The notes under the pieces were generated by a model that saw only the letters and a list, made by a program, of their open reading frames with translations, was not told the origin of the DNA and did not search any database. A DNA stretch of 64,000 nucleotides from Nitrososphaeria archaeon (GTDB lineage Archaea > Thermoproteota > Nitrososphaeria > JACIWG01). The position numbers and the translations under genes are program-made. The stretch lies in assembly GCA_029776065.1 (NCBI GenBank), contig JARVJP010000006.1, positions 1-64,000 on the forward strand, written 5' to 3'. Shown in pieces: positions 18,410 to 58,039 of the stretch (the stretch's first letter is position 1; every line of letters begins with the position of its first letter).

Positions 18410-18427
18410 CAAAATATTTAAGTTTAT

Positions 18428-18501
18428 GGTATATTAGGTTTACCGCACACTATTAAATATAAGCCATCGTTTTTAATGGTTTAGCGTAAACCAAATATAC
18501 G
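18428..18501 (+). promoter_or_regulatory. Paired 17-bp palindromic operator A, upstream of ferritin-like gene
   Basis: Two related 17-mers are present: GGTATATTAGGTTTACC at 18428-18444 and CGTAAACCAAATATACG at 18485-18501. Each is an imperfect palindrome of the form SGTAwAN5TwTACS, and their centres are 57 bp apart. The proximal site lies about 100 bp upstream of the ATG at 18591. The same pair with the same spacing is found upstream of the genes at 28768 and 31642. The proximal site also forms GGTTTA-GCG-TAAACC with flanking bases. Probably bound by a dimeric regulator at both sites. Confidence 0.7.
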
Positions 18502-18590
18502 GTAATAACAAACTAAGCTAATGCGCTTTAGAATTAAATTACTCTTACTTCATGTAAATACTTAAATAAGCAGATTAATCATATGAAATT

Positions 18591-19070
18591 ATGTCAATCA
18601 AAGTAGATATGAAAAACATTCTAAAAGATATGGTTGGCGAAGAATATGACCTATCAAAGAAGCTAAAAGAATTAGCTGAAGAAATTAACAGTTCCGTTAT
18701 TAAATCGCTCTTAATGGTGATCGCTTTAGATTCTGAAAAACATTCCAACTTGTATTCCACCGTTATTGACCTCCTCGATGTGAGCAGAAGAATGGTTCCA
18801 GAAAGTGATATCGAAAGAATAGAGAGCGAAGTTGATTATCATATAAGAAATGAAGCAAGGCACTTCGATGAAGTGAAAAAGATCATGGATTCCACAGAAG
18901 ACTTTAGAATAAAGTTTCTTTTAGAACTCATTCTTGAAGATGAAGCCAAACATCACAGAATATTTAAGGAGTTAAAGAACGCTATAATGTCAAAGGAAGC
19001 CCTAACGGAGGACATTGTATGGGACATGGTATGGAAAGACGCAGTTTTTCATGGTGGACCTGGTGGCTAA
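18591..19070 (+). CDS. Ferritin-like / rubrerythrin-like four-helix protein
   Basis: This 159-residue all-helical protein has repeated carboxylate-histidine motifs: 'GEEYDLSKKLKELAEEI' in helix 1, 'VIALDSEKHSNLYSTVIDLL' in helix 2, 'YHIRNEARHFDEVKKIM' in helix 3 and 'LLELILEDEAKHHRIFKELK' in helix 4. This is the di-metal ferritin-like arrangement seen in many small archaeal rubrerythrin relatives. There is no rubredoxin domain. Likely roles are peroxide, iron or oxygen handling; none is proven. The ATG at 18591 lies about 27 nt from a TATA-like TACTTAAATAAG, so it may be leaderless. Operator pair A precedes it. A second, related protein lies at 31787-32311. Confidence 0.75.
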   Translation: MSIKVDMKNILKDMVGEEYDLSKKLKELAEEINSSVIKSLLMVIALDSEKHSNLYSTVIDLLDVSRRMVPESDIERIESEVDYHIRNEARHFDEVKKIMDSTEDFRIKFLLELILEDEAKHHRIFKELKNAIMSKEALTEDIVWDMVWKDAVFHGGPGG

Positions 19071-19131
19071 GAAGTTAATTTCTATAATACCTTAATAGAA
19101 GTATTTATTATACGGTAATATATCGCATAAG

Positions 19132-20358
19132 ATGATGGCAGCAACAAACGAAGCTAATGAGGAAACAGAGAGTAAAAAGGGCAATAAATGCTTAGCTTCT
19201 AGAAGGTTTACAACAGATAGCATTCATGGCCACGAATACTATGATCTAAAATTAGGTCTTTTCAAAGTCCCTATCTATATGACTGCAGTATGGGAGCAAT
19301 TTGATAAAAACACCGGGGAACCTAGAAGAACAGATAGAAACTTAGATTTAAAGTATTCAAGAGAGGAAAATATTACAGTTAACTCGCTTGAGAAGGCTTT
19401 AAGTAAATTAGAAAAAGCCGAAGACTCACTTGCCTTTAATAGTGGAATGTCCGCATTATCTGCAGTATACCTTGCAACATTAAAAGTTAATGACACTATC
19501 TTGATTTCAAAAGAAAGTTATGGGACGACGCAGCAATTAGCTAGCCATATGGAGAAGTTCGGTATTAAAACCATCTTAGCAGGACCAGAGACAGAGGAAT
19601 TAATAGAATCAATAAATGATAGCGTTAAACTAGTTATAGTAGAAACGATAACAAACCCTCTTTTAAAGGTTATCGATGTAGCTGCTGTAGCTAAAAGATG
19701 CACTGAAGTTGGATCAAAACTTGTTGTAGACAACACCTTCGCATCCCCTGTTATATTTAGACCACAGGAGTATGGTGCTTCAATGACGCTGCACAGCTTA
19801 ACCAAATACATCGCAGGGCATAATGACGTAATCGGAGGATCTGTCACAAGTAATAAGGAAACAATAAAAGATCTTTGGGATTGGAGAAGAAAGTTAGGTA
19901 ATATAATGAACCCGTTTGAAGCCTTTTTGATCATTAGAAGTTTGCCGACTTTAAAGTTAAGATTCACACAACAGTCTAAAACAGCAAAAATACTTGCAGA
20001 ATTTTTAGAAGATAATTCTAAAATCAAAGAAGTTTATTACCCTGGTCTTAACAGTAGCCCTTATCGTTCAATTGCTGATAGAATCTTTTCTGAAAGAATG
20101 TATGGAGGCGTATTAAGCTTCAAATTGAGGGAGGGAAAGGAGGGTGTATTTAAATTCTTTAAGGAAACCAAGATCATAAAGTCTTCCCCGAGTTTAGGAG
20201 GCACTGAGTCACTGGCTACGTCTCCTGTTTTAAGTGCTGCATCCACAATGGCTCCAGAAGTTCAGAAAGAGCTTGGTATCACAGAGGATCTTATACGATT
20301 ATCTGTTGGGCTTGAAGATGTCGAAGACCTTAAAGAGGACATCGAACAAGCATTATAA
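19132..20358 (+). CDS. PLP-dependent trans-sulfuration enzyme (cystathionine gamma-synthase/lyase family)
   Basis: The 408-residue protein is a Cys/Met metabolism PLP enzyme. PLP-binding features are 'AFNSGMSALSAVYLATL', 'VDNTFASPVIFRPQEYGASMTLHSLTKYIAGHNDVIGG', with the Schiff-base lysine in SLTKY, and the substrate-binding C-terminal 'SSPSLGGTESLATSP' and 'LIRLSVGLEDVEDLKEDIEQAL'. These place it among cystathionine gamma-lyase, cystathionine gamma-synthase, methionine gamma-lyase and O-acetylhomoserine sulfhydrylases; length and motif do not separate them. Two consecutive ATG codons stand at the start. It is followed by the his operon leader. Confidence 0.85.
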   Translation: MMAATNEANEETESKKGNKCLASRRFTTDSIHGHEYYDLKLGLFKVPIYMTAVWEQFDKNTGEPRRTDRNLDLKYSREENITVNSLEKALSKLEKAEDSLAFNSGMSALSAVYLATLKVNDTILISKESYGTTQQLASHMEKFGIKTILAGPETEELIESINDSVKLVIVETITNPLLKVIDVAAVAKRCTEVGSKLVVDNTFASPVIFRPQEYGASMTLHSLTKYIAGHNDVIGGSVTSNKETIKDLWDWRRKLGNIMNPFEAFLIIRSLPTLKLRFTQQSKTAKILAEFLEDNSKIKEVYYPGLNSSPYRSIADRIFSERMYGGVLSFKLREGKEGVFKFFKETKIIKSSPSLGGTESLATSPVLSAASTMAPEVQKELGITEDLIRLSVGLEDVEDLKEDIEQAL

Positions 20359-20390
20359 AATATTTAAGCCACCAGGAAACACACATTACA

Positions 20391-20540
20391 TTTATATAGA
20401 GTATATTTATGAAGGATGAGTGGATGGTAGATGGGTGGTTTAGTTCATAATTCCATATGAACTTGGCGTAACTGATTCTTCTACTTCTAATACCACCTAC
20501 CCAAACGCCATTCATTCAAAAGAAGTTTTGGTGTATTTTA
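20391..20540 (+). promoter_or_regulatory. Promoter and structured leader of the histidine operon
   Basis: TATA element TTTATATAG at 20391-20399 starts a leader of roughly 120 nt before the TTG of hisG at 20541. Bases 20413-20438 can pair with 20493-20518 over about 20 of 26 positions including G-U pairs (outer block GGATGAGTGG with CCATTCATTC, inner block GGGTGGT with ACCACCT), leaving a loop of about 54 nt. No obvious histidine-rich leader peptide is visible. The hairpin could regulate hisG translation or transcription elongation. Confidence 0.45.
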
Positions 20541-21527
20541 TTGAGTAAAATACTATTCGCAATACCAAAGGGTTCATTAGAAAAAGCAACGTTCGATTTC
20601 TTAGAAAAAGCGTTTGTCAAAATATACGGGAGAGAGAGAAGTTATAGACCAACATCAAATGACCCTGACCTAAAGTTTAAGATCCTAAGACCACAAGAGA
20701 TACCAATATATGTTGGAGACGGCCTTTACGATGTAGGAATAACAGGTCTAGACTGGGTTCAAGAGACAAGCGCAGACGTCAAGGTTTTATTGCATCTAGA
20801 GTTTGGTGCTGCAAAATTGTTAATGGCTGTACCAAAGACTATAAACGCCAGCTCCACAAACGAATTATTAAATGTCTATAACACGTCAAAGAAGGTACTT
20901 AGAGTCTCCACAGAGTATCCTTCTCTAGTTTCAAGGTACTTCTTAGACTTGTCTGAGTATAAGCGCCTTTACCAAGAAGAGGAACCTATCATAGTCACCC
21001 CATGGGGGAAGAGAGGAAGTAATAAATGGGTTCAACTGTATCTTTCCTTTGGTGCTACTGAAGCAAAGCCACCTGAAGAAGCGGATGCGATAGCAGATAT
21101 TTCTGAGACAGGGACAACGCTTGAACAGAACGGTTTAAAGCCCATAGACGTAATAGTTAGATCACAAGCGGTATTAATTGCAAACAGATCTACTTTAAAA
21201 GATCTGGGTAAAAGGGAGAAGGTCTATGACATTATTGCACTTTTTAGAGGGGTGATAGAAAGTTCAAAGAAACTACATATCTTCTTAAACGTCAAAGAGG
21301 ATAACTTGCAATCGGTACTCTCATTTCTACCTGGTTTGAAGGGGCCTACAGTGAGTAATCTCTCAAAGCCTGGTTGGTATGCTGTGAATACTATTGTTGA
21401 TAGATCAGAGTATATTAAACTACTTCCGAAGTTACGGAAGATTGCGCAAGGGCTTGTTGTCCACGAACCTCAACTCATCATGCCTTTAGAAGATATAGCT
21501 CGAGAAGAAGAAGGTGTTCAAATATGA
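20541..21527 (+). CDS. hisG: ATP phosphoribosyltransferase (long form)
   Basis: This is a 328-residue HisG that condenses ATP with PRPP, the first step of histidine synthesis. The N-terminal half has 'LFAIPKGSLEKATFDFLEKA', 'YVGDGLYDVGITGLDW' and 'EADAIADISETGTTLEQNGLKPI', the PRPP-binding loop region. The last part, from about residue 240 ('LHIFLNVKEDNLQSVLSFLPGLKGPTVSNL' and 'WYAVNTIVDRSEYIKLLPKLRKIAQGLVV'), is the HisG_C regulatory domain that binds histidine in long-form enzymes. It starts with TTG directly after the leader and overlaps hisD by four bases. As a long form it needs no HisZ partner. Confidence 0.93.
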   Translation: MSKILFAIPKGSLEKATFDFLEKAFVKIYGRERSYRPTSNDPDLKFKILRPQEIPIYVGDGLYDVGITGLDWVQETSADVKVLLHLEFGAAKLLMAVPKTINASSTNELLNVYNTSKKVLRVSTEYPSLVSRYFLDLSEYKRLYQEEEPIIVTPWGKRGSNKWVQLYLSFGATEAKPPEEADAIADISETGTTLEQNGLKPIDVIVRSQAVLIANRSTLKDLGKREKVYDIIALFRGVIESSKKLHIFLNVKEDNLQSVLSFLPGLKGPTVSNLSKPGWYAVNTIVDRSEYIKLLPKLRKIAQGLVVHEPQLIMPLEDIAREEEGVQI

Positions 21528-22807
21528 GGGTTTTTGAATTAGAAGCATGCAACTTCAAAGAAGTTATCAGAACCATTCAATCATATGTTCGAGTCAGCGA
21601 TAAATTGGAACGCTCTGTGCAAAATATTTTACGTGATGTTAGAAAAAGAGGGGACTTCGCCCTCTTCAAATACACTAGAAGCTTTGATAAGTTCGAACTC
21701 ACTGAAAATAACATTAGAGTATCCAAGAAAGAAATTCAGGAAGCCTATGACAAAGTGAGCAGAGGAGACTTAAAGGCGTTTAAGACTCTAAAAAACAACA
21801 TAGAAAGAGTTGAAGTAAAGACTTTATGTAGATTGAAGATAAATTATACTTTTAATGGTATCCGAGTGTCCCAAGAAATTAGACCGCTAGATAGTGTTGG
21901 CTGTTATGTTCCAGGTGGCAAGGCCTCTTATCCAAGCACCCTTCTGATGACGGTCGTCCCTGCGAAAGTGGCGAAAGTACGGAGGGTTGTTGTGGTTTCT
22001 CCTCCTAAAAAAATCACCCCTGAACTTCTAGTCGCAGCGGATATAGCCGGAGTAGATGAAGTATATAGAGTTGGAGGGGCCCAAGCTATTGCAGCGCTTG
22101 CTTATGGAACGAAGAGCATATTACCTGTCCAGAAGATTGTGGGGCCTGGAAACCTCTATGTAACGATTGCTAAAAAGGTTGTCTCAAAAGATGTTGAAAT
22201 CGATATGTTAGCAGGTCCTACTGAAATACTGATCTTTGCAGATGAAAGTGCTGATCCAAGGGAGATAGCGTTGGATCTAATATCTCAAGCGGAGCATGGA
22301 CCTGATTCGGTCTGCGGTGTTGTAACCCAATCTAAGGCATTAGCAAACAATATTATAAAAGAGGTCATCCAATTTTGTAAGAGTGTGGAACGTGGTGATT
22401 TTGTTTTAAACACGATGGAGGATAATGCGTTCGTCGTAGTAACAAAGGGGATAGAGGACACTTTAAGCTTAATAAACGATTTTGCGCCGGAACATCTCGA
22501 AGTACTTTCTAGGGAACCAGAAAAGATTGTAACGAATGTATCAAACGCAGGTGTAATAGTTGTAAATACACCAAGCGTGATAACAGACTATTATTCAGGG
22601 GTTAACCATGTTCTCCCCACAAGCTGCAACGCAAAGATCAGAGGTGGGCTAACCATTCTTGATTACATGAAGGTCATTAGAATAGTTTCTGCTTCAAAGC
22701 AAGGCATGGCTAAATCCTTTCCGACGATAAGGAGACTTGCGCTTTTAGAAGGACTACCAAATCATTTAAAATCTGTCGAGTATAGGGTGAAAACGAATGT
22801 TGCTTAA
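21524..22807 (+). CDS. hisD: Histidinol dehydrogenase
   Basis: The 427-residue HisD oxidises L-histidinol to histidine in two NAD-dependent steps. Diagnostic stretches are 'VGCYVPGGKASYPSTLLMTVVPAKVA', 'GGAQAIAALAYGTKSILPVQKIVGPGNLYVT', 'AGPTEILIFADESADPREIALDLISQAEHGPDS' and 'INDFAPEHLEVL' with the zinc and catalytic histidine. The ATG overlaps the TGA of hisG (ATGA). It ends inside the start of hisC, so translation is probably coupled through all three. Length is normal for the family. Confidence 0.94.
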   Translation: MRVFELEACNFKEVIRTIQSYVRVSDKLERSVQNILRDVRKRGDFALFKYTRSFDKFELTENNIRVSKKEIQEAYDKVSRGDLKAFKTLKNNIERVEVKTLCRLKINYTFNGIRVSQEIRPLDSVGCYVPGGKASYPSTLLMTVVPAKVAKVRRVVVVSPPKKITPELLVAADIAGVDEVYRVGGAQAIAALAYGTKSILPVQKIVGPGNLYVTIAKKVVSKDVEIDMLAGPTEILIFADESADPREIALDLISQAEHGPDSVCGVVTQSKALANNIIKEVIQFCKSVERGDFVLNTMEDNAFVVVTKGIEDTLSLINDFAPEHLEVLSREPEKIVTNVSNAGVIVVNTPSVITDYYSGVNHVLPTSCNAKIRGGLTILDYMKVIRIVSASKQGMAKSFPTIRRLALLEGLPNHLKSVEYRVKTNVA

Positions 22808-23864
22808 AAAAAGCATTAGGAAAAGGCTATCCAAGTTAGAGAAAACTCAGTATTATCCATTAGAAGATACAAGGGAGATGATAGCGAGATTAAACCTTAA
22901 TGAAAATTTTGTGATAGACAAGGAAGAGATGATTCGACTTGCTAATGAAACTTTGAGAGAGGTAGACTTTAGGCTTTACCCAAACACAGAACAGGATGAG
23001 CTTATACGATGTTTATCAGAGAAGTATGGATTGAGCAAAGATTGTTTTGCACTTGGTTGTGGAGAGGATCAACTGATAGATATGTTAATCAATGTGTTTG
23101 GCCGCCGAAACAAAGTTGTCTCAATTACTCCTACTTTTCCAGTTTACCGCTATAGAACATTATTACATGGGGGGATTTTTATCGGAGTTCCTTTAAACTC
23201 CGACTTCTCTTTGAATGTGGAAAAACTGGTTAAAGAGGGTAAAGAAACAAATCTTTTGTTCATCTGTTCGCCTAATAACCCAACAGGAAATCAATTTTCA
23301 AAGAAAGTAATAGAAGAGGTCCTATCTTCTGTGGAATGTTTAGTTGTTGTCGACGAGGCTTATGTCGACTTCGCAGAATATAGTGTTTACCCTATGGTGT
23401 CCAACTATGAAAACCTAGTTGTGTTAAGAACATTTTCAAAAGCTTATGGTTTAGCTGGGTTAAGGCTAGGATATATGATTACATCTCCAAGAGTTGCTAA
23501 ACCGATAGCTACTGTAGCACAACTGACATACCCTGTAGTTAATTTCGCTTTAAAAATGGCAACCAAGCTAATACGAAATGATGACTTAGTATTAAAAGCA
23601 GTTAAACAAGTAAAAGAGGAAAGGGAGCGACTTTACAATGAATTAATACGGATGGGAATAGATGCTAAAAGGTCTCAAGCCAATTTCATATTATTTAAGT
23701 CTCCTATCAACCCGAAGCGATTCTACAACGCACTTGTTAAAAACAAGATAATTATCCGTAATTCAGGCATGTTCTTTGGAGACCACTACTTCAGAGTAAC
23801 TGTAGGAACTCGTGAACTAAATGACATGTTCATAAAGGTGGTGAAAAGAATTATTAACAAATGA
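22797..23864 (+). CDS. hisC: Histidinol-phosphate aminotransferase
   Basis: This is a 355-residue class I/II PLP aminotransferase that converts imidazole-acetol phosphate to histidinol phosphate. Marks are 'RLNLNENFV' near the start, 'LGCGEDQLIDML', 'FICSPNNPTGNQFS', 'LVVVDEAYVDFAEYS' and the PLP lysine in 'LRTFSKAYGLAGLRLGYM'. It overlaps hisD by 11 bases. It is followed after 28 bases by a HAD phosphatase gene that probably supplies the next enzymatic step. Assignment rests on the family motifs plus position in the operon. Confidence 0.92.
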   Translation: MLLKKSIRKRLSKLEKTQYYPLEDTREMIARLNLNENFVIDKEEMIRLANETLREVDFRLYPNTEQDELIRCLSEKYGLSKDCFALGCGEDQLIDMLINVFGRRNKVVSITPTFPVYRYRTLLHGGIFIGVPLNSDFSLNVEKLVKEGKETNLLFICSPNNPTGNQFSKKVIEEVLSSVECLVVVDEAYVDFAEYSVYPMVSNYENLVVLRTFSKAYGLAGLRLGYMITSPRVAKPIATVAQLTYPVVNFALKMATKLIRNDDLVLKAVKQVKEERERLYNELIRMGIDAKRSQANFILFKSPINPKRFYNALVKNKIIIRNSGMFFGDHYFRVTVGTRELNDMFIKVVKRIINK

Positions 23865-23892
23865 GTACCTCCCATTAAAGGGATTACGAGAA

Positions 23893-24951
23893 GTGCTTAT
23901 CCGAAAAACGAGTGTTAAAGACCTGTTAAATGTGAACAGGATTATCTTCGACTGCGATGGAGTTCTAGTTGAGAGTAAAAATTCTTACGACTTAGCTATC
24001 AGAGAAACCTTAAGATACATCTTTAAGCCATTAAACTTCGAAGAAATTAGCTTAAAAGAATTGGAGAATCTAAGGCTCACAGGGCTTTACAACATCGAGT
24101 GGGATACAACATTTGCACTTGCGATCTTCGTCTTCTCGCAGTTGACAAAGAAGCAGGCAAAAGCGATTCTAGAGTATTTGGGAGGAAAAGAATTTATCAA
24201 TAAAGTTGAAGAACTTGATAATTCTGGGATAGCAAGAGCATTTAATGAATTTGTGAAGGGGTTAAAGAAGGACCCTGTTGGCGACGTCGAAGAATATGCT
24301 AGAAGGCTTTGTTCAAAAAAGAATACGGTTAAAGAACTTGGGGAATTAGTAAGAATTCTAGGTAAACCAAACGAACCAAATAAGAGCTATTTAGTTAAAC
24401 TCTTTGATTCTTTATACTATGGAAATTCTTTATACACTAAAGTATATGGAACTCGCCCCCCATTGAACTTGAGTAGAGGATTCATAGAGAATGAAAAACT
24501 TTTGGTAAATGAGGACACCCTAAAGGATTTAAAAGAGCTGTTTGGAACGAAGTTCTATATTTTAACAGGTCGATCTAGAATTGGGGTAGAACATGTTTTA
24601 ATAGATTTAAAAGACTTTTTCGACTTTGACCATTCTATATTTATTGAGGATATGGTTCGGACTAAGCCTGAGGAGGCTAGGGACTTTAAGAAGCCTTCAC
24701 CAATTCCTTTACTGAATTTAGCGAATAACTCGAATTCATTATATGTAGGAGACTCAGCTGAAGATGTGATAATGAGCTTAAAAGCCAAAGAAATGTTTCA
24801 AAAGTTATATTTCATTGGGGTTACAGGTAATAAGGCAAATCCTAAACAGATGGAAGAGTTTTTGATGTCATCAGGTGCAGATGCACTTGTGGATTCAGTT
24901 AATGATTTGGTGTGCATCTTTAAATCAATCAAGAGAAGTGATATATTTTGA
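23893..24951 (+). CDS. HAD-superfamily phosphatase in the his operon (candidate histidinol-phosphatase)
   Basis: The 352-residue protein has HAD motif I in 'RIIFDCDGVLVESKNSYDLAIRETL' (D20 and D22), motif II in 'FYILTGRSRIG', the lysine in 'KPEEARDFKKPSPIPLL' and motif IV in 'LYVGDSAEDVIM'. A large helical insert of about 170 residues lies between motifs I and II, much longer than ordinary HAD caps. It sits between hisC and hisB, starts with GTG, and overlaps hisB by four bases, exactly where a histidinol-phosphatase is needed. No other phosphatase candidate is present in the operon. The step assignment is inference from context. Confidence 0.75.
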   Translation: MLIRKTSVKDLLNVNRIIFDCDGVLVESKNSYDLAIRETLRYIFKPLNFEEISLKELENLRLTGLYNIEWDTTFALAIFVFSQLTKKQAKAILEYLGGKEFINKVEELDNSGIARAFNEFVKGLKKDPVGDVEEYARRLCSKKNTVKELGELVRILGKPNEPNKSYLVKLFDSLYYGNSLYTKVYGTRPPLNLSRGFIENEKLLVNEDTLKDLKELFGTKFYILTGRSRIGVEHVLIDLKDFFDFDHSIFIEDMVRTKPEEARDFKKPSPIPLLNLANNSNSLYVGDSAEDVIMSLKAKEMFQKLYFIGVTGNKANPKQMEEFLMSSGADALVDSVNDLVCIFKSIKRSDIF

Positions 24952-25523
24952 GAAAAGCAACGATAACTAGGTCGACTAAGGAAACCACTGTGAAGGTAAG
25001 CCTTAACCTCGATGGAAAAGGACTATGTAATATCAATACAACGATAAAATATCTTGACCACATGCTCCAACAGTTATCTGTACACAGTTTTATGGACCTT
25101 GACGTATTTGCTGAAGGTGACCTATCACATCACATTGTTGAAGATGTTGCGATAGCTCTGGGCACAGCAATTAGTGAAGCTCTAGGTAACAGGCATGGTA
25201 TTAAAAGATTTGGTCACGCAATCGTTCCTATGGATGAAACCTTGGCCATGGTGGCAGTAGACCTTGTTCAGAGACCGCATGTAGAAATAAAGCTTGAACT
25301 AAGTTCAAATAAGATAGAAGATATATATACAGAGGACATTCCACACTTTCTAAAATCTTTTGCATCATCACTACAATTCACTTTACATGTGGATATATTG
25401 AAAGGGACTAACAACCATCACAAAGTAGAGACTATATTCAAGGCCTTAGCGCTTTCTTTAAAGGAAGCATGGTCGATAGAAGCGAAAAGGAAAGGAGTTC
25501 CTAGTTCGAAAGGTAAGATGTAG
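24948..25523 (+). CDS. hisB: Imidazoleglycerol-phosphate dehydratase
   Basis: The 191-residue HisB dehydrates imidazole glycerol phosphate using two manganese ions. Characteristic repeats are 'YLDHMLQQLSVHSFMDL', 'GDLSHHIVEDVAIALGTAISEALG', 'MDETLAMVAVDL' and 'LHVDILKGTNNHHKVETIFKALALSLKEA', with the paired HHxxE-type metal motifs. TTG at 24948 overlaps the stop of the HAD gene as TTGA, the same coupling seen between the Pot permeases. It is monofunctional, without the bacterial HisB phosphatase domain, which fits a separate phosphatase gene upstream. Confidence 0.94.
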   Translation: MRKATITRSTKETTVKVSLNLDGKGLCNINTTIKYLDHMLQQLSVHSFMDLDVFAEGDLSHHIVEDVAIALGTAISEALGNRHGIKRFGHAIVPMDETLAMVAVDLVQRPHVEIKLELSSNKIEDIYTEDIPHFLKSFASSLQFTLHVDILKGTNNHHKVETIFKALALSLKEAWSIEAKRKGVPSSKGKM

Positions 25524-26126
25524 ATGAAGTTTGCGTTATTAGATTACCATGCTAGCAACATGTTCAGCCTTATAGCAGCATTTAAGAGATTAGACGTTGA
25601 AACAAAAATAGTCACAAAAGAGGATAACTTTAATGAATATTCTGCAATAATATTACCTGGGGTTGGCAATTTTTCATCTGCAAGTGATATTACATCTGAT
25701 TGTAAAGAGAAGATATTAGCATGCGTAGATAAAGGGGTTCCTTTACTAGGCATATGCTTGGGGCTTCAAGTATTATTTGAAAGCAGCAGTGAAGGAGATG
25801 GTAAAGGTCTTGAAATATTTGAAGGAGATGTTATCAAATTTCCTCCGCATGTTAAAGTGCCACATATAGGTTGGAACCAAGTCTTTCCATTAATGAACAG
25901 CGTCCTTCTTAAAGGCTTAGAAAATAAAAACTGGGTCTACTTCGCACATTCTTATTATCCAAAACCAAGGGATGAATCTATTATTAAAGGTATTACAGAG
26001 TATGGTATAAAATTTGCATCAGTAATAGAAAGGGAACCTGTATTTGGAACGCAGTTCCATCCTGAAAAGTCAAGCGCTACAGGTAAGTCGATATTGAAGA
26101 ATTTTATTGAATATGTTAAAAGGTGA
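25524..26126 (+). CDS. hisH: Imidazole glycerol phosphate synthase, glutamine amidotransferase subunit
   Basis: This is a 200-residue class I glutamine amidotransferase. The catalytic triad is visible: Cys in 'LLGICLGLQVLF', and His and Glu in 'VFGTQFHPEKSS'. The N-terminal 'YHASNMFSLIAAFKRLDVE' and 'AIILPGVGNFSSA' fit HisH. It delivers ammonia from glutamine to HisF, encoded two genes downstream. It starts with ATG directly after the hisB stop, and its last codons contain AGGTGA, which can serve as Shine-Dalgarno for hisA. Confidence 0.93.
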   Translation: MKFALLDYHASNMFSLIAAFKRLDVETKIVTKEDNFNEYSAIILPGVGNFSSASDITSDCKEKILACVDKGVPLLGICLGLQVLFESSSEGDGKGLEIFEGDVIKFPPHVKVPHIGWNQVFPLMNSVLLKGLENKNWVYFAHSYYPKPRDESIIKGITEYGIKFASVIEREPVFGTQFHPEKSSATGKSILKNFIEYVKR

Positions 26127-26130
26127 AAGA

Positions 26131-26850
26131 TTGGAAATCTGGCCTTCACTGGATTTGATGGGAGGAAAAGTGGTTAGACTAGTTAAAGGCAATCCTTCAA
26201 AGTCTATTGTATATAGTGATGACCCTCTCAAAGTAGCGCTCAAATGGCAGAGAGCTAGAGTTTCAGGTTTGCATATAATCGACTTAGACGCTACGCTTCA
26301 ACTAGGAAACAACATAGAAGTTATACAAAAGATAGTAAAGAATATCGACCTACCAACACAACTTGGGGGTGGAATTCGTTCAATAAGGTCGATAGAGGCA
26401 GCGTTCAAGTTAGGTGTTGAAAAAGTTATCGTTGGGACAGCTTTATTTACAAATAAATTAGACCCAATTGAACTTCTCAAATTCGGTTCAAACAAAGTCG
26501 TGATTGCTATTGACCATATAAATGGGCAAATTGCAATAAGCGGTTGGAGAACTAAATTAAGTCTCAAACTATCTTCATCAATACAGAAACTTTGGAACCA
26601 AGGGTTCAGACTTTTTCTTTCAACAAGCGCTAGTAGGGATGGTACTCTTAAGGGATGTGATAAATCGCATTTAATGAAGATAGAAAAGTTCTTACCATAT
26701 ACTTACATTGCAGGAGGAATATCGTCTCTAGAAGACTTACGTTTTCTAAAAAACAAGAATGTTAAAGGCGCCATTCTGGGGCGAGCGTTATATGATAGTG
26801 TCATAAAAATTGAGGAGGTAATGGAGGTGGCAGGGCTTGCCAAAAGCTAA
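26131..26850 (+). CDS. hisA: ProFAR isomerase
   Basis: This (beta-alpha)8 isomerase converts ProFAR to PRFAR. The start is best placed at the TTG at 26131, giving 'MEIWPSLDLMGGKVVRLVKG', the usual opening with the catalytic Asp. AGGTGA at 26121-26126 is a good ribosome-binding site five bases ahead. TTG 26107 or ATG 26113 would add residues overlapping hisH and are less likely. Later marks are 'LPTQLGGGIRSIRSIEAAFKLGVEKVIVGT' and 'YIAGGISSLEDL', the phosphate-binding repeats. The usual second catalytic Asp region is present in 'STSASRDGTLKG'. It overlaps hisF by 14 bases. Confidence 0.9.
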   Translation: MEIWPSLDLMGGKVVRLVKGNPSKSIVYSDDPLKVALKWQRARVSGLHIIDLDATLQLGNNIEVIQKIVKNIDLPTQLGGGIRSIRSIEAAFKLGVEKVIVGTALFTNKLDPIELLKFGSNKVVIAIDHINGQIAISGWRTKLSLKLSSSIQKLWNQGFRLFLSTSASRDGTLKGCDKSHLMKIEKFLPYTYIAGGISSLEDLRFLKNKNVKGAILGRALYDSVIKIEEVMEVAGLAKS

Positions 26851-27607
26851 AAGAATAATCCCTTGCTTAGACGTTGATGCAGGTAAGGTGATGAAAGGCA
26901 AAAGCTTTGTCGATCTGAAAGTAGCAGGAGAACCTGTTAAGATGGCTCTTAAGTATAGTGAAGAAGGAGCTGATGAACTAGTATTCTTAGATATAACCGC
27001 GACAATAGAGTACAGGAAAACCTTAGTAGAAATAGTTAGGCAAGTTGCGGAAGTTTTAGATATACCATTCACTGTTGGTGGAGGGATAAGAAGCGTAGAG
27101 GATACTTATGAAATTCTAAGAAATGGTGCCGATAAGGTTTCGATAAACACGATGGCTGTTGAAGAACCGGCAATAATAACAAGGCTTTCTAAAAGATATG
27201 GTAGTCAATGTGTGGTTATAGCGATTGATGCAAAGCGTTCGAGCATAGCCCCCTCTGGCTTTGAAGTGTATACTCATGCAGCACGAAAGCCGACGGGTAT
27301 TGATGCTGTAAACTGGGCTAAGCAAGTAGAAAAATTAGGCGCAGGTGAAATTCTACTTACTTCTATTGACCGTGATGGATCCAAACAAGGATATGATTTA
27401 GAATTGACCTCAAAGATAGCTGAGAACATCAACATACCTGTTATTGCAAGTGGGGGATGTGGTACGCCAGAACACTTGTACGAAGCACTCACATTAGGTG
27501 AAGCAGACGCAGTACTCGCAGCATCGATATTTCATTATAATGAGTTTTCCATTCCTTATGTTAAGAAGTACCTTTATGAGAAAGGACTGAATGTGAGATT
27601 GCTATGA
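26837..27607 (+). CDS. hisF: Imidazole glycerol phosphate synthase, cyclase subunit
   Basis: The 256-residue HisF barrel closes the imidazole ring, releasing imidazole glycerol phosphate and AICAR. Marks are 'RIIPCLDVDAGKVMKGKSF' with the catalytic Asp, 'GADELVFLDITAT', 'PFTVGGGIRSVEDTYEILRNGADKVSINT', 'LLTSIDRDGSKQGYD' with the second Asp, and 'VIASGGCGTPEHLYEAL'. It starts with TTG at 26837 inside hisA, preceded by GGAGGTGG as ribosome-binding site. It partners HisH. The released AICAR feeds purine synthesis, relevant to the fusion gene that follows. Confidence 0.94.
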   Translation: MPKAKRIIPCLDVDAGKVMKGKSFVDLKVAGEPVKMALKYSEEGADELVFLDITATIEYRKTLVEIVRQVAEVLDIPFTVGGGIRSVEDTYEILRNGADKVSINTMAVEEPAIITRLSKRYGSQCVVIAIDAKRSSIAPSGFEVYTHAARKPTGIDAVNWAKQVEKLGAGEILLTSIDRDGSKQGYDLELTSKIAENINIPVIASGGCGTPEHLYEALTLGEADAVLAASIFHYNEFSIPYVKKYLYEKGLNVRLL

Positions 27608-28569
27608 AAATTGTAAGTGAAACTTCACTTGAAGATTTGAAGTTTAATGAATACGGGCTTGCACCAGTTGTAGTTCAAGACTACGTTACTCGTGAAGTTT
27701 TGATGTTTGCTTATGCCAATAAAGAGGCTATAACAAAGACTGCTGAAACTGGGTTTGCACATTTTTGGAGCCGATCAAGAAAGAAACTATGGCTTAAAGG
27801 AGAAACCTCAGGAAACCTCTTAGAGATCGCAGAAGTAAGAATTGACTGTGATTACGACACAATATTATACATAGTTGAACCCTATGGACCAACATGCCAC
27901 ACCGGTATGAAGTCTTGTTTCCATAACAAATTTAGAAACACATGTATGGTTGAGAACAAGTATGAACAAGAAGTAGTCTCAGAAATAATTTCCTATTATG
28001 AGAAGGCAAAGATCATTAAACGCAAATGGGTTAAAGACCCAACCAAAAGAACATATGAATTCATATTGAATGGAATAACTGAACATGTTCCACCCCCAAA
28101 CCCAAGAGTGATTACTTGGATCGCTAACAAAATAAATTCAATTACTTCAGACGATATAGATAAAGTGGTTGTCCCTGAATCACTCGGCATCCCTATCGGC
28201 ACACTCGTCTCACAAATAAAAGGAAAACCGATGACTATTGTTAGGAAAAGGCCCTTTTATTCAGATGAATACCTTTTAGAAAAGGTAAAATATGCTTCAG
28301 GATACGAAAAAGGGGTCTACTATATTTATGGTGTAAAGAAAAACGATAACATTTTGATAATTGATGACACTATATCAACTGGTGGTACTTTAGAAGCATT
28401 ACTTGAATCTTTTATTAAAAATGGAGTAAGAGTAGTGGATGTTGCTTGTATAATGGATAAGGTTTTTTATCACGGCTCTGAAAAAATTGAATCAAAATTT
28501 GGTATAAAGGTGAAGTCACTAATTAAAGTCGACAAAACTATGAATGTTATAAAATGTACTTTAGTCTAA
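27604..28569 (+). CDS. hisI: Fusion: phosphoribosyl-AMP cyclohydrolase (HisI) + archaeal HGPRTase-like phosphoribosyltransferase domain
   Basis: Residues 1 to about 110 are HisI: 'YVTREVLMFAYANKEAI', 'FWSRSRKKLWLKGETSGN', the Mg/Zn motif DCDYD at 81-85, and zinc cysteines C98 and C105. The remaining 210 residues match the archaeal hypoxanthine/guanine phosphoribosyltransferase family (APRT-like Hpt), not HisE: 'KVVVPESLGIPIGTLVSQI', 'GKPMTIVRKRPFYSDEY', the PRPP-binding loop ILIIDDTISTGGT at about 250-262, and 'KSLIKVDKTMNVIKC'. The reading frame is continuous with no stop or linker break. It overlaps hisF by four bases. HisE is not found in the operon, so phosphoribosyl-ATP pyrophosphohydrolase must be encoded elsewhere or supplied otherwise. 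Confidence 0.87.
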   Translation: MKIVSETSLEDLKFNEYGLAPVVVQDYVTREVLMFAYANKEAITKTAETGFAHFWSRSRKKLWLKGETSGNLLEIAEVRIDCDYDTILYIVEPYGPTCHTGMKSCFHNKFRNTCMVENKYEQEVVSEIISYYEKAKIIKRKWVKDPTKRTYEFILNGITEHVPPPNPRVITWIANKINSITSDDIDKVVVPESLGIPIGTLVSQIKGKPMTIVRKRPFYSDEYLLEKVKYASGYEKGVYYIYGVKKNDNILIIDDTISTGGTLEALLESFIKNGVRVVDVACIMDKVFYHGSEKIESKFGIKVKSLIKVDKTMNVIKCTLV

Positions 28570-28597
28570 TATGCTTTAGATAAATGAACAATTATAT

Positions 28598-28671
28598 GGT
28601 AAATTAAGTTTACGGGACACTCTAAATATTTGTCAAAAAAAAAGAAAGGTGCTCGGTAAACCTAGTTTAGA
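28598..28671 (+). promoter_or_regulatory. Paired 17-bp palindromic operator B, upstream of hemerythrin-PAS gene
   Basis: GGTAAATTAAGTTTACG at 28598-28614 and GGTAAACCTAGTTTAGA at 28655-28671 match the SGTAAAN5TTTACS palindrome, again 57 bp apart centre to centre. The distal site and the bases after it (GGACAC) closely resemble operator A (GCACAC). A TATA-like CTTAAATTAATAC lies about 36 bp past the proximal site. Confidence 0.7.
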
Positions 28672-28767
28672 GTAAATATTCTAATATGACAATCTTAAAT
28701 TAATACAAAAAAGTCTAAACAATTAATAGACTTAGATAAACTAATAAGAAAAGCCTAAGAAGTCACG

Positions 28768-29982
28768 TTGGTGAAAATGTTAGAGGATAAAAGTAAAGCA
28801 TTAAAAGAGATCATTAAACAGCTGCATTCAGGAACCCCGCCTTCTGATGTTAAGGAAAGATTCAGTAAAATTTTAGAGACCGTAACACCACAAGAGATAG
28901 CGAAAATAGAGCAACAACTAGTAGTGGAAGGTGTTCCACGTGAGGAATTACAAAAGTTATGTGATATCCATCTCGCTGTTTTTAGTGAACAATTAGATAA
29001 AACAACTGTTCAAATTCAATCATGGCATCCAATAAAGATCCTGATGGAAGAACATAAAAGTATACTAAGTCTTTTAGAAAATTATGGAAGACTGTTTGAC
29101 ATCGTAAAGAAAGCAGAAAAATTAACGCAAGTAGAAGATGAGATCTCTAAATTGAATAGCATCGCTGAAGACTTTAATGACTCCGAGAAACATTATTTAA
29201 GGGAGGAAAACGTGATTTTCCCATTATTAGAAAAACATGGAATCACTGAACCTCCTGCGATAATGTGGATGGAACATGACAAAATAAGAAATGCCAAAAA
29301 AGAGTTTCAAGAACTTGTTAAGAAGATCAAAGAACAAGACTTCCAAATATTCAAAGAAAAAATTGATAAAAATTTTGAAGCGATGAACACGATTATACCA
29401 AACCATTTCTATAAGGAGAATAACATACTCTTCCCAACCGCTTTACAATTGATCACAAAAGAGGAATGGGAAGAGGCTTTAACCGTATTCAATGAAATTG
29501 GCTATTGTCGTTTTACACCTCTTCCAACAGTTGCTCCGGAGATTCGCGAAGAAAAAATAAAAGAGGTTTCACTTGATAAAATAAAGTTTGAGACCGGATC
29601 ACTTACAATTGAGGAAGTAGAAGCAATATTAAATTCGCTTCCAATAGACATAACCTTTGTAGACACTGAAGATAAGGTAAAGTTTTTTAACAAAAGCGAA
29701 AGAAGAATCTTTATCAGAACAAAAGCAGTGATTGGAAGAAAGGTCCAACAATGCCATCCACAAAAAAGCGTACATATTGTGAACAAAATATTAGATAGTT
29801 TTAAAGATGGAAAAAGAGATGTAGCTGAATTTTGGATTGAAATGGGAGGACGTTTGATATATATAAGGTACTTTCCTGTAAGAGGTAAAGTTGGAAAATA
29901 TTTAGGGACTATCGAAGTGACACAAGACGTAACAGAGATCAAGAAACTTGTAGGTGAGAGAAGACTATTAAACTGGGAATAG
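28768..29982 (+). CDS. DUF438-hemerythrin-PAS sensor-like protein
   Basis: The protein of about 404 residues has three parts. Residues 1-85 are a DUF438 helical domain ('LHSGTPPSDVKERFSKILETVTPQEIAKIEQQLV'). Residues 86-230 are a hemerythrin HHE domain, with candidate iron ligands H87, H96, H142, E146, H170, H213 and E217 in 'SWHPIKILMEEHKSIL', 'SEKHYLREENVIFP', 'MWMEHDKIR' and 'IPNHFYKENNILFP'. Residues 285-395 are a PAS domain ('SLPIDITFVDTEDKVKFFNKSE'). Such proteins are thought to sense O2, NO or iron-sulfur damage. TTG 28768, GTG 28771 and ATG 28777 are all possible starts. Operator pair B controls it. Confidence 0.85.
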   Translation: MVKMLEDKSKALKEIIKQLHSGTPPSDVKERFSKILETVTPQEIAKIEQQLVVEGVPREELQKLCDIHLAVFSEQLDKTTVQIQSWHPIKILMEEHKSILSLLENYGRLFDIVKKAEKLTQVEDEISKLNSIAEDFNDSEKHYLREENVIFPLLEKHGITEPPAIMWMEHDKIRNAKKEFQELVKKIKEQDFQIFKEKIDKNFEAMNTIIPNHFYKENNILFPTALQLITKEEWEEALTVFNEIGYCRFTPLPTVAPEIREEKIKEVSLDKIKFETGSLTIEEVEAILNSLPIDITFVDTEDKVKFFNKSERRIFIRTKAVIGRKVQQCHPQKSVHIVNKILDSFKDGKRDVAEFWIEMGGRLIYIRYFPVRGKVGKYLGTIEVTQDVTEIKKLVGERRLLNWE

Positions 29983-30033
29983 GTCTAATGTCTAGTAGAA
30001 TCTAATGCTTAGAATAAACGGACATAGGAGGGT

Positions 30034-30609
30034 TTATTCTATATCTTTTAACCAAACTTTGATTGCACCCTTAGCTTCCATTTCTTTTATTGCCTTTTCA
30101 CTATCACCTGGGTTAACATCAACACCTTTTATTGAGTCCATAAGCAGATAAACGTCATATCCTTCTTTTAAGCCGTCTAAGACGGTGTTCTTTACACAAT
30201 AGTCAGTAGCAAGGCCACCAACAAATATTCTCTTTACTTTAAGCTCTTTCAAAATTTTATTTAATCTTGTTCCTTGAAAACCTGAATAAGCTTCAAAATC
30301 AGGTTTATCTGCTTTAGATATTATAATTATATCCTTTGGAAGTATCAGTTTAGGATGAAATTGAGCACCCCAAGTGTTCTGTATACAGTGAGGGGGCCAG
30401 ATCCCACCATATTCTTTAAAACTCATATGGTTTTTAGGGTGCCAATCTCGAGTAACAATTATTGATGCTTTCCTTTCAGAGAATTTAATAATATATTTGT
30501 TTAAAATAGGAACTATTTTATCACCTTCAGGAACTGCGAGTGAACCAGATGGGCAAAAGTCGTTCTGAACGTCTACAATTATGAGTGCATCTTTTATGTT
30601 AATATCCAT
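30034..30609 (-). CDS. pncA: Nicotinamidase (isochorismatase-like hydrolase)
   Basis: This is a 191-residue cysteine hydrolase that converts nicotinamide to nicotinate in NAD salvage. The catalytic triad is D13 in 'IIVDVQNDFCPSG', K99 in 'ISKADKPDFEAYSGF' and C138 in 'GGLATDYCVKNTVLDGL'. The metal site is D55, H57 and H61 in 'TRDWHPKNH'. 'GGIWPPHCIQNTWGA' is the usual PncA loop. Both motif content and length match archaeal nicotinamidases well. It converges with the hemerythrin-PAS gene and stands alone, without NAD genes nearby. Confidence 0.92.
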   Translation of the reverse strand: MDINIKDALIIVDVQNDFCPSGSLAVPEGDKIVPILNKYIIKFSERKASIIVTRDWHPKNHMSFKEYGGIWPPHCIQNTWGAQFHPKLILPKDIIIISKADKPDFEAYSGFQGTRLNKILKELKVKRIFVGGLATDYCVKNTVLDGLKEGYDVYLLMDSIKGVDVNPGDSEKAIKEMEAKGAIKVWLKDIE

Positions 30610-30784
30610 ATCAAATCAAATAATTATTAGTTAAGATGGTTTACTTTAAGTTTTTCTTAGAAGGAATACTCTTTCGTCAAGTTAGCTAAAAAAATTAATT
30701 ATATTTCTGATGATGTTAGGCTTAATCGTTTAATTATCTTTTTTTATTTATGAATTATAATTCTAGCATAAACCTAATAAAACA

Positions 30785-31642
30785 TCATTGATTATATTTT
30801 AAGATAAAGTCACCAACATTTGAATTTAAATATCTGGCGACCACAGGACATTTTACTATAAGTAAAAAGAACACCCCTTTTATATCATCCAATAGTTCAA
30901 AGTTACCTTGGCCTTTAGATATGATCAAATCTCCTTTTTCAACCTTAGAATTCAAATATTCCTTAAACTGTTGAACCTCATGGGAAGAACTTATATCTAT
31001 CGCATCTAGCTCTAAGTTTTTTAATTCTTTAAAGAATCTTTTTGGGACGTCTGTGATAATTACGTCATTAAGTATTGGCTTCTTCTTCACGATCATGGAA
31101 ATTTTAGGGTTGTTCATCATCTCCGATAAGACTTTTAGAAGTAGCAAGTCAAAGACTATCTCCCCTGAATTATCTGCAACCAAAATAACTTTCTCACTTT
31201 TATTTAACATCTTTTTCAAGATAGATACGTCATTTACTTTAAATCCTCCTCTTTTTGCAATTCCTATTACTTGATTAACATCCACGTTATTTAAGGCGCC
31301 TAAATCAATTATATTACCAGCAATAGAAAAACGAATTGAAGTCATCAAAGGGGTCCTACTTTGTTTTATAATCCTTAGTAAAGAAGGATAAAGTTGGAAC
31401 GCTTTTTTGTTATGCATTTCTTTTGCCTTTAGATATGGATCTTCAATTCCAGTAAATCTAGGGATAGCTTGGTAAATCTTTGAGAAACATTCGTGTATAG
31501 AATAATCCCAATCTAAGTCGGCAAGTTCTCTCATTGAGGATTTAAGGATTTCGCTTAAGATCTTTTTATCGTTTGTAACTATTTGTGCTGACCTTAACAT
31601 TTGCCCTATGTAACATAACACGCATTCAGGGGAAGTCTCCAT
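30785..31642 (-). CDS. DUF89/ARMT1-like metal-dependent phosphatase
   Basis: The 285-residue protein is of the DUF89 family, metal-dependent damage-control phosphatases that hydrolyse sugar-phosphate or cofactor by-products. Family marks are the N-terminal 'SPECVLCYIGQMLRSAQIV', the 'SIRFSIAGNIIDLGAL' motif, 'VILVADNSGEIVFDLLLLKVL' with the metal-binding D/N, and 'LIISKGQGNFELL'. Start ATG at 31642; a TTG at 31648 would add two residues. Operator pair C lies just upstream, which ties it to the ferritin-like and hemerythrin-PAS genes. The exact substrate is unknown; the archaeal subgroup has been linked to sugar-phosphate clean-up. Confidence 0.85.
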   Translation of the reverse strand: METSPECVLCYIGQMLRSAQIVTNDKKILSEILKSSMRELADLDWDYSIHECFSKIYQAIPRFTGIEDPYLKAKEMHNKKAFQLYPSLLRIIKQSRTPLMTSIRFSIAGNIIDLGALNNVDVNQVIGIAKRGGFKVNDVSILKKMLNKSEKVILVADNSGEIVFDLLLLKVLSEMMNNPKISMIVKKKPILNDVIITDVPKRFFKELKNLELDAIDISSSHEVQQFKEYLNSKVEKGDLIISKGQGNFELLDDIKGVFFLLIVKCPVVARYLNSNVGDFILKYNQ

Positions 31643-31696
31643 AGGCAAGCTAATAGGTTAACATTATTATAAGTTGACAATCTATAAAAACTTTAC

Positions 31697-31770
31697 CGTA
31701 CACTTAATTTACGGAAAATGTTTCTGAAATTTAGTTCTTTTAGATGAGTTTTGCGTAAACCTAATTTGCC
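31697..31770 (-). promoter_or_regulatory. Paired 17-bp palindromic operator C, upstream of DUF89 gene
   Basis: CGTACACTTAATTTACG at 31697-31713 and CGTAAACCTAATTTGCC at 31754-31770 fit the SGTAAAN5TTTACS palindrome, again centred 57 bp apart. Read toward the DUF89 gene, the distal site is GGCAAATTAGGTTTACG, nearly identical to the distal sites of A and B. A TATA-like CTTATAAT follows about 35 bp past the proximal site and about 28 bp before the ATG at 31642. Confidence 0.7.
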
Positions 31771-31786
31771 GTAAAACCATAGCTTA

Positions 31787-32311
31787 TTAGACGTATCCCT
31801 TTGAAACTATTGTAGAAATTGCTTGTATAATTTTAACATGACGTTCTTCATCTTCAATAATCCAATCAATGATGGTCTTAATCTGATTATGCTCAAGACT
31901 GCTTTCTTTTAATGAGAGCTCTATCAATATAAGCTGGGTTGCTGAAAAGTATTCTTCACCTAAATAGCTTTCAAAAGCAGACATATCCTTTATCAGTCCA
32001 AATAGATCCGATTTCTCAGGTACACTGTACACTTCGGTTCTAGCTAGTTTTTCAAGCTTATTCCATGCGTCGCCCATTAACTCACTACAATCAATTTCTG
32101 TTTGGTTAACCTTTTCTATGCTTTCACTTAAGACTTTAAGAAGTAATGAATGTTTTTTGCTGTCTACAGCGATGGAGTGTAACAGTGTTGATATTTGTGT
32201 ATTAGTTACTCTTTCAGCAAGACTGTCATATGCTTTATAAACCCGTTCTTCAAGAATACTTGAACAAAGCAGAAATCGTGCTATATCATTTTTTTCTAAT
32301 CCGGGAGACAT
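31787..32311 (-). CDS. Ferritin-like / rubrerythrin-like helical protein (paralogue)
   Basis: The 174-residue helical protein has ferritin-like metal motifs: 'CSSILEERVYKAYDSLAERV', 'LHSIAVDSKKHSLLLKVLSESI', 'ESYLGEEYFSATQLILIEL' and 'IIDWIIEDEERHVKIIQAI'. The DSxKH and EDExxH motifs parallel those of the protein at 18591-19070, so the two are probably distant paralogues. It is a complete open frame starting with ATG at 32309-32311 in AT-rich sequence. Operator pair C lies just past its stop, so the pair more likely serves the downstream DUF89 gene. A role in iron or peroxide handling is inferred from the fold. Confidence 0.72.
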   Translation of the reverse strand: MSPGLEKNDIARFLLCSSILEERVYKAYDSLAERVTNTQISTLLHSIAVDSKKHSLLLKVLSESIEKVNQTEIDCSELMGDAWNKLEKLARTEVYSVPEKSDLFGLIKDMSAFESYLGEEYFSATQLILIELSLKESSLEHNQIKTIIDWIIEDEERHVKIIQAISTIVSKGYV

Positions 32312-32669: not shown

Positions 32670-34145
32670 ATGGCCAATATCACTCAAAAAGATCATAGAT
32701 TTCCGCCAAGATACGGACCTGAATGGGGTTCTGGAGGAATATTTGGATTAAAATATTTCAAGAGCACGTTATTTTTTAATCTAGCCTTTGAGGGAGAAGC
32801 GCATTTTTTAGATGAAGAAGGTGAGATTATCTATAAATACGGGTTGGTCGGGCCTGAACCGGTTTCTGGAGGAGACACTTATAATGCTGTTGACGTAGTC
32901 GATGACTTTATCTATTTCGGTGGATGGGTTCATGCTCCTGCTAAATATATTAAAAAAGGAGAAAGAAAAACTATTTCTTTCACAAATAAGTATAGTCATG
33001 TTCACCAGTTTGATACAAAAGAGAAGCAAGTGAAACTGGTTTGGAAAGAAACCATCAACAGCGAAACCGATTGGACTGGGGAAGTATCTAATATAGTCTA
33101 TAACCCTGTAGACGATAACCTTCTTTTATCGCGGGCTGATGGGCACACGAATCTAGGGGTTTACTCTTTAGATAGGAGAACGGGTGTGATTTCGCAACTA
33201 AGCTCTGATCCTAGCGTTAAAGGTACACTATTTCTAGACTCTGTGTGCTTTGATATATCAAGCATAGGGGATTTTAGAGGAATACAACATGTTGACCTTC
33301 AAACTAACAATTGGTCCAAGATAAGAATTAATGACATGAAAAAAATTTCCATAGATAAAGGTGATGTGATAAAACCCTTTGTTGGTGCTATGGCCTCTGC
33401 TTACGCCCAGCTTTTTACATTCATTAAAGGAGGGGTTGTTATAGGAAACCCCCTAGATGGTACGGAGGATTCGATACAATTTATTAGGTTGTTTGATTTT
33501 GTTTTGTCAGGTTATTCTCCTAGTAGGACAACAGCAATACCTGTTGGAGGGGGGATTCTCACTTCTTTCAACGCCTTTACTCACGGTCTTGTGAACCCTA
33601 TGAATGAAGAAGAGAAGAAAGCGATGGAAGCAGGAAACACAATTATAGGTCCATCTGTTTTAGTATACATTACGCCACCAATTGCAAGAATAGTTGGTGT
33701 GTTTGGTGCAAGAATAACTTCAATAGAAAACTGCTTTAAAAAAATATTGTTAGGAACATCAACTACCGCGAATTTGGGAATGTTTAATGCGACACCAATC
33801 GATGCTGGATATAGGGAAATTATAGCCATTGACGAAGGGATTTTATCAGCTCCTTCCCCTCCTACATATTACAGCATCCCGGGGCATAGAGTCTTAAACC
33901 AAACCTGGGGGGGTATACCACTTTTTGGATATAAAGATCCAAAGTTTAGGATAAAATCTTCTAAAACAAACCGTGTTCATATATTTGAATATGACCTTGG
34001 GATACCTATCCAACCTCCTGAAGAAACAACTTACGAGCTACATGAAGGCATTAATATCCTAGATCTAAATGGGTTCAACCGCATAGTCTCATTTAAGTTT
34101 GATGAGGAAGATTTGAAATCGATGATATATATATCATTGATTTAA
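32670..34145 (+). CDS. DUF2139 family protein (archaeal, function unknown)
   Basis: The 491-residue soluble protein begins 'HRFPPRYGPEWGSGGIFGLKYFK', then 'LAFEGEAHFLDEEGE', which matches the archaeal DUF2139 family known mainly from Thermoproteota. The protein is rich in short beta strands and repeating aromatic and glycine turns ('DDFIYFGGWVHAPAKY', 'DNLLLSRADGHTNLGVYSLDRRTG'), consistent with a beta-propeller. No signal peptide or catalytic motif is visible. The ATG is preceded by AAGGAGA. It is followed after 63 bases by an MFS carrier with its own TATA box. Function is unknown. Confidence 0.7.
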   Translation: MANITQKDHRFPPRYGPEWGSGGIFGLKYFKSTLFFNLAFEGEAHFLDEEGEIIYKYGLVGPEPVSGGDTYNAVDVVDDFIYFGGWVHAPAKYIKKGERKTISFTNKYSHVHQFDTKEKQVKLVWKETINSETDWTGEVSNIVYNPVDDNLLLSRADGHTNLGVYSLDRRTGVISQLSSDPSVKGTLFLDSVCFDISSIGDFRGIQHVDLQTNNWSKIRINDMKKISIDKGDVIKPFVGAMASAYAQLFTFIKGGVVIGNPLDGTEDSIQFIRLFDFVLSGYSPSRTTAIPVGGGILTSFNAFTHGLVNPMNEEEKKAMEAGNTIIGPSVLVYITPPIARIVGVFGARITSIENCFKKILLGTSTTANLGMFNATPIDAGYREIIAIDEGILSAPSPPTYYSIPGHRVLNQTWGGIPLFGYKDPKFRIKSSKTNRVHIFEYDLGIPIQPPEETTYELHEGINILDLNGFNRIVSFKFDEEDLKSMIYISLI

Positions 34146-51343: not shown

Positions 51344-51374
51344 TTTAATCGTCAAATTATATTTAATAGTAAAA

Positions 51375-51384
51375 GTTTATAAAT
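51375..51384 (+). promoter_or_regulatory. TATA box of the Lrp-type regulator
   Basis: GTTTATAAAT is centred 27 nt before the ATG at 51407, supporting a leaderless transcript. Confidence 0.5.
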
Positions 51385-51386
51385 TT

Positions 51387-58025: not shown

Positions 58026-58039
58026 TAGCCCAACATATA

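Follow-up and report, generated by a model that had tools for sequence, protein, structure and literature searches.

The first 64,000 nucleotides of contig JARVJP010000006.1 from a Nitrososphaeria archaeon (hereafter the window) carry three copies of an 86-bp element, each consisting of four 13-bp palindromic boxes, GTTTAnSnTAAAC, whose centres are spaced 16, 41 and 16 bp apart. We tentatively propose that these clustered chromosomal sites are centromere-like or chromosome-organising, and that an autoregulated winged helix-turn-helix (winged-HTH) protein assembles on them. The window belongs to a 170-kb contig (G000 C9) of a 1.74-Mb metagenome-assembled genome (G000, 95.5% complete); three further genomes (G001, G003 and G004) represent a sister genus, and G002 (85% complete) is of the same family. 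The units were scored with a first profile, R1, and then with profile R3, rebuilt with the new members:

18422..18507, no strand: unit A, four 13-bp boxes (18422-18434, 18438-18450, 18479-18491 and 18495-18507), site centres 18436 and 18493; R3 E value 1.6e-16
28592..28677, no strand: unit B, architecture as unit A, site centres 28606 and 28663; R3 E value 3.5e-15
31691..31776, no strand: unit C, architecture as unit A, site centres 31705 and 31762; R3 E value 1.3e-15

Six 17-mers that the first-pass annotation had placed in this region are all present, and the centres of the three pairs (18436/18493, 28606/28663 and 31705/31762) are each exactly 57 bp apart, with 0/0, 0/1 and 1/1 mismatches to the core GTAWAN5TWTAC. 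The nearly constant distal site that it had described holds in the three pairs, as does the unrelated nature of the intervening sequence, the 28 bp in between being unconstrained. The sites are thus real, but their description as 17-mers was incomplete, each 17-mer being the middle of a 29-bp site composed of two 13-bp palindromes. The pattern GTAWAN5TWTAC-N42-GTAWAN5TWTAC has three occurrences in the window when up to three mismatches are allowed; the expectation from shuffles is 0.09, and none of 100 shuffles reached three. A scan of the whole 1.74-Mb genome for 57-bp pairs, which the first-pass annotation had proposed, returned the three known places and one 3-mismatch chance match, and nothing else. 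Single 17-mers with at most one mismatch were found across the genome solely at five of the six sites, whereas 3-mismatch matches were equally frequent in the genome and in a reversed control (75 in all versus 72). Using a 23-bp matrix, the six sites scored 21.6-27.1, whereas no other place in the 170-kb contig exceeded 12.6; when one pair was left out of the matrix, both sites of the omitted pair ranked within the top six matches of that contig. The pairs in the genome number just three and are confined to 13.3 kb, and the chance of three random points falling this close is ~2e-4. A single site elsewhere with a high score (G000 C1:8215) was rejected because it falls within the coding frame of a permease-like protein. 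At 58030-58080 of the window, in the gap after a transporter gene, part of the site is weakly matched three times, in overlapping stretches offset by 16 bp.

The architecture was read from an alignment of the three units, their reverse complements and the units of relatives. One pair corresponds to one 86-bp unit, and the 57-bp spacing is the distance both from box 1 to box 3 and from box 2 to box 4. The consensus GTTTAnSnTAAAC was drawn from 40 boxes, in which the TTTA and TAAA positions are almost invariant and the central base, position 7, is G or C in 37, while the spacer varies freely. Across two sets of orthologous units (U1 and U2) from the three sister species, half-sites are 86-88% identical, compared with 44-50% for box centres, 50-55% for spacers and 35-47% for flanks. 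This pattern indicates that the half-sites and their geometry are under purifying selection, and that they are selected as DNA.

An exact 57-bp pair pattern searched in 61 relatives, and a stricter one in 400 genomes of the class, matched the window genome alone. This null result is misleading, because the boxes of the sister genus have drifted to GTTTA/TAAAC and are detectable by profile alone. In the profile search, convincing units were restricted to the window's family, with three each in G000, G001, G003 and G004; they lie on contig C26 of G003 at 29.4, 44.7 and 55.4 kb, on contig C7 of G004 at 17.8, 21.4 and 34.4 kb, and on small contigs in G001. G002 gave no convincing unit in this search. 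Site spacing in relatives, a comparison suggested by the first-pass annotation, is 57 bp in every unit but one, where it is 56 bp. Profile matches in a further genome, G039, were not box-like and were rejected, as was a viral contig match to the exact pair pattern (789-860), a coincidence arising from a 19-aa (57-bp) tandem coding repeat. The inner-box pattern was not found in viral contigs, and a search of plasmids with unit A gave no match.

In the window, as had been annotated, unit A stands before a ferritin-like gene, unit B before a hemerythrin-PAS gene and unit C before a DUF89 gene beside a second ferritin-like gene. Unit A is 12 bp from the 3' end of leuD and 83 bp from the ferritin-like gene; unit B is 22 bp from the 3' end of a hisI-phosphoribosyltransferase gene and 90 bp from the hemerythrin-PAS gene; unit C is 10 bp from the 3' end of its rubrerythrin/ferritin-like gene and 42 bp from the 5' end of the DUF89/ARMT1 gene. 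The genes concerned, and a synteny marker, are:

18591..19070, plus strand: ferritin-like gene downstream of unit A
28777..29982, plus strand: DUF438-hemerythrin-PAS gene downstream of unit B
30785..31648, minus strand: DUF89/ARMT1 damage-control phosphatase gene downstream of unit C
31787..32311, minus strand: second ferritin-like (rubrerythrin family) gene, with unit C at its 3' end
32670..34145, plus strand: DUF2139 gene, 62-63% identical between the genera, which marks synteny next to the cluster in both

The gene before unit B (27604-28569) appears by reading to encode a 321-aa fusion of HisI to a phosphoribosyltransferase-like domain at the C-terminus; the HisI of the sister genus has 113 aa and lacks that domain.

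The flanking genes of the sister-genus units were named by reading their sequences. U1 lies at the 3' end of mscS and precedes the deoxyhypusine synthase (DHS) gene in G001 and G003, while in G004 mscS is convergent with an S1C protease gene. U2 is found between convergent B3/4 (B3-B4) and Fe-ADH genes in all three sister genomes, and U3 extends over the start of a winged-HTH gene. U4, present only in G001, sits between convergent nitroreductase and UroD-like genes, where the gap in G003 and G004 is ~10 bp and holds no unit. Overall, 10 of the 12 unit instances follow a gene's 3' end at a distance of 0-22 bp and none occupies a divergent gap; convergent 3' ends flank two of the three independent sister-genus positions in every genome that has them. 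The gene order units, DUF2139, winged-HTH, Opp operon is common to both genera, and no flanking gene is. The leu/his block that carries units A and B in the window keeps its order in G003 and G004, where it lies on a different contig and is free of units, and the leuD-ferritin-CGS context of the gene at unit A is likewise kept in the sister genus with no unit there. Across the genera, the chromosomal neighbourhood with the winged-HTH gene is conserved and the target genes are not. Around U1 (9758-9857 and 15369-15468 in the two extracted loci) the order has been rearranged between G003 and G004, with an inversion, loss of deoxyhypusine synthase and a shortened mscS, and the unit is kept at the breakpoint.

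The best candidate for a binding protein is the winged-HTH protein encoded in this neighbourhood, ~10-26 kb from the units:

42192..43028, plus strand: candidate binder, winged-HTH protein of 279 aa, with an HxlR/MarR-like N-terminus and a helical C-terminus of ~200 aa
42168..42196, no strand: weak single site, centre 42182, over the winged-HTH start in the window genome; counterpart of the start-region unit of the sister genus

The protein is 45-46% identical to its G003 and G004 orthologues. Pfam matches of its N-terminus are of HxlR/MarR type and its long helical C-terminus has no family match; the AF2 model is poor outside the winged helix (pLDDT 52), and the Foldseek matches are valid for that domain only. 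Among 61 relatives, the full protein was found only in the unit-bearing G000, G003 and G004. No second full-length family member was found in 150 genomes of the phylum, where one N-terminal match occurred in a 314-aa protein. A plasmid or viral origin was considered and rejected, with no match in plasmids and no relative in viral contigs. In G003 and G004, no other gene start on the contig has a 57-bp pair as good as the one in the start region of the winged-HTH gene; this pair scores 26.5+13.1 in G003 (clear) and 18.1+5.3 in G004 (weaker), and its second site overlaps the start codon. From this sister-genus unit over the start region, the protein probably represses its own gene.

We propose that each unit would act as a nucleoprotein-assembly element of ~86 bp that binds four predicted dimers of the winged-HTH protein (42192-43028), one per box. 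Boxes 2 and 3 (41 bp, 3.9 turns) and boxes 1 and 4 (73 bp, 6.95 turns) would be in phase on the same face of the DNA and boxes 16 bp apart (1.5 turns) on opposite faces, which would give a compact multi-dimer complex. Assembled at its own gene, this complex would bring about autorepression. Some three units per genome are retained in one syntenic neighbourhood with the winged-HTH gene, whatever the flanking genes. The units may then serve as a local chromosomal site, centromere-like or chromosome-organising, in the manner of parS, SegB or AspA clusters and with no neighbouring ParA. We favour such a role over that of operators because the units remain in a single neighbourhood although the genes beside them turn over, and because they frequently lie between convergent genes. 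What the sequences establish is the element, together with its spacing, purifying selection, clustering and synteny; the identity of the binder, its dimer stoichiometry, its autoregulation and the function of the units are what we infer here.

Several observations weigh against this proposal. All units in the window genome precede genes, two of the three being diiron-protein genes, which is improbable by chance, and units A and B carry a TATA-like ACTTARATAA at an equal offset, 67 bp from the proximal centre. The number of units, about three, is below that of most centromere clusters, and no ParA/SegA-like gene was found on the cluster contigs. The weak site at 42182 has an R3 E value of 0.02 for the whole genome and ranks 7th of 166 gene starts, which alone is not significant. 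G001 has units and no winged-HTH gene was found in it, its contig ending at the expected gene position, and in G002 neither units nor the gene were found. The diiron genes beside A and B and the shared TATA-like element keep alive the main rival, a local transcription regulon, which we regard as unlikely: the winged-HTH protein would be a repressor or activator, and four-box operators would control nearby genes (the ferritin-like gene at A, hemerythrin-PAS and DUF89-pncA in the window genome), with targets turned over between genera. Units A, B and C and U1 of G001 and G003 precede genes by 42-90 bp, a unit over the winged-HTH start in G003 and G004 is typical of autoregulated transcription factors, and the HxlR/MarR-type Pfam matches point the same way. 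However, convergent 3' ends flank U4, U2 in all three species and the G004 copy of U1, and no promoter role is apparent for these units; the genera share no flanking gene, and distances to start codons vary. A narrower version, advanced in the first-pass annotation, held that one regulator responding to iron, oxygen or redox state binds both sites upstream of diiron-protein genes. What stands of it is a probable protein-binding arrangement with fixed spacing, kept in relatives; the iron, oxygen or redox regulon does not, and we consider it improbable. A ferritin-like gene and the hemerythrin-PAS gene do follow two of the three units, and the third has the second ferritin-like gene on one side and DUF89 on the other, but unit C adjoins that ferritin-like gene at its 3' end, the genome encodes another ferritin-like paralogue (C14:19188-19613) that lacks a unit, and the confinement of the three pairs to 13.3 kb also speaks against such a signal. 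Orthologues of the ferritin-like (61-63%) and hemerythrin-PAS (56-61%) genes in the sister genus have no upstream unit, and the genes that adjoin units there are unrelated (mscS/DHS/S1C protease, B3-B4/Fe-ADH and nitroreductase/UroD); the sister genomes largely refute the iron/oxygen regulon. As separate observations, a short HTH gene that looks COG2522-like by eye runs divergently from the sister-genus hemerythrin-PAS gene and may constitute a different regulator arrangement, and at 50687-51823 of the window peroxiredoxin and Lrp/AsnC regulator genes diverge across a 51-bp gap without a unit.

The position of 10 of the 12 unit instances just behind a gene's 3' end, and the presence of U4 only in G001 with a gap of ~10 bp in its place in G003 and G004, would fit a transcription-boundary or insulator element, or a small non-autonomous repeat settling just behind genes. 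This seems improbable: the boxes are conserved and the spacers are not, there is no conserved T-run and no Rfam match, and about three copies in one neighbourhood are unlike dispersed repeats. Far less probable still is an RNA or cruciform structure formed from the inverted halves, which the dyad symmetry of the unit would allow to pair. Across the dyad, pairing of the variable box centres was seen in 18 of 60 cases, approximately the level of chance, while each box is palindromic by itself (153 of 200 positions); no covarying stems of a structured RNA were seen at the box centres, and comparison of the unit with Rfam gave no match. The lack of box-centre covariation refutes this possibility.

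Other genes in the window include a HAD-phosphatase-like gene in the his operon (23893-24951), in the hisC-hisB gap and kept in the sister genus (42-44%). A 95-aa open reading frame at 13504-13791 reads as an N-terminal photolyase fragment and is probably a pseudogene remnant, and a 176-aa frame at 1962-2492 resembles, by reading, a LAGLIDADG-type homing endonuclease.

Among known systems, SegB of the Sulfolobales recognizes a 13-bp palindrome with a central S, TCTAGAsTCTAGA (PMC12284271), with one site at the start of segA and one centred at -59 (PMC12284271, PMC5120986). The units resemble SegAB in the 13-bp palindrome with central S, in a site at a gene start and in clustering near the gene of the (candidate) binder. 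In contrast, SegB is a ribbon-helix-helix protein with segA adjacent and most of its sites inside genes, whereas here the motif is GTTTAnSnTAAAC, the putative binder is a winged-HTH protein, segA is absent and the four-box units are intergenic. No protein with a KGG-x-GK[ST] motif was found on the cluster contigs read (G000 C9, the first 95 kb of G003 C26, and G004 C7). Those AAA_31 matches that were read are Mrp/NBP35-like and lie on other contigs, and membership of SegAB was rejected. The winged-HTH protein AspA of pNOB8 uses a 23-bp palindrome upstream of its gene as a nucleation site (PMC5120986). The features of AspA that bear comparison are its winged-HTH dimer, the palindromic site at its own gene and the formation of a higher-order complex; the gene of the candidate binder likewise carries such a palindrome, which is clear in G003, less strong in G004 and, in the window genome, weak and below significance. 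AspA, however, has parB and parA downstream and a single 23-bp palindrome instead of the 16-41-16 array, and overlapping parB and parA genes downstream of the winged-HTH gene are not among its neighbours. A replication origin linked to Orc1/Cdc6 was also rejected, Cdc6_C matches being on G000 C3 and G003 C24, away from the contigs with units.

The HxlR, MarR, Lrs14 and MsvR families of archaeal winged-HTH regulators, among which autoregulation is common, resemble the candidate in the fold of its N-terminus, and it combines this fold with a putative site over its own start, weak in the window genome. It differs from them in its ~200-residue helical C-terminus without family match and in the 16-41-16 array. 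Few, clustered palindromic chromosomal sites that are indifferent to nearby genes are known from the bacterial systems parS-ParB, matS-MatP (a 13-bp palindrome) and Noc/SlmA, which differ in having other motifs and folds and no fixed multi-box unit. By analogy, the four-box units would work like a site-cluster and binder system, and one that belongs to none of the known systems tested. We found no description of a 16-41-16 array in the literature, our coverage of which is incomplete, and we know of essentially no account of chromosome segregation or organisation in Nitrososphaeria. It is possible, and we put this more cautiously than the proposed assembly itself, that a family of Nitrososphaeria has an undescribed centromere-like or organising system made up of a solitary winged-HTH protein and about three clustered four-palindrome units with invariant 16-41-16 geometry. 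If the units were transcription operators instead, this four-box geometry would be an unusual and precisely defined archaeal regulatory architecture. The constrained site array and its candidate binder offer a directly testable entry point, with one protein and one 90-bp DNA.

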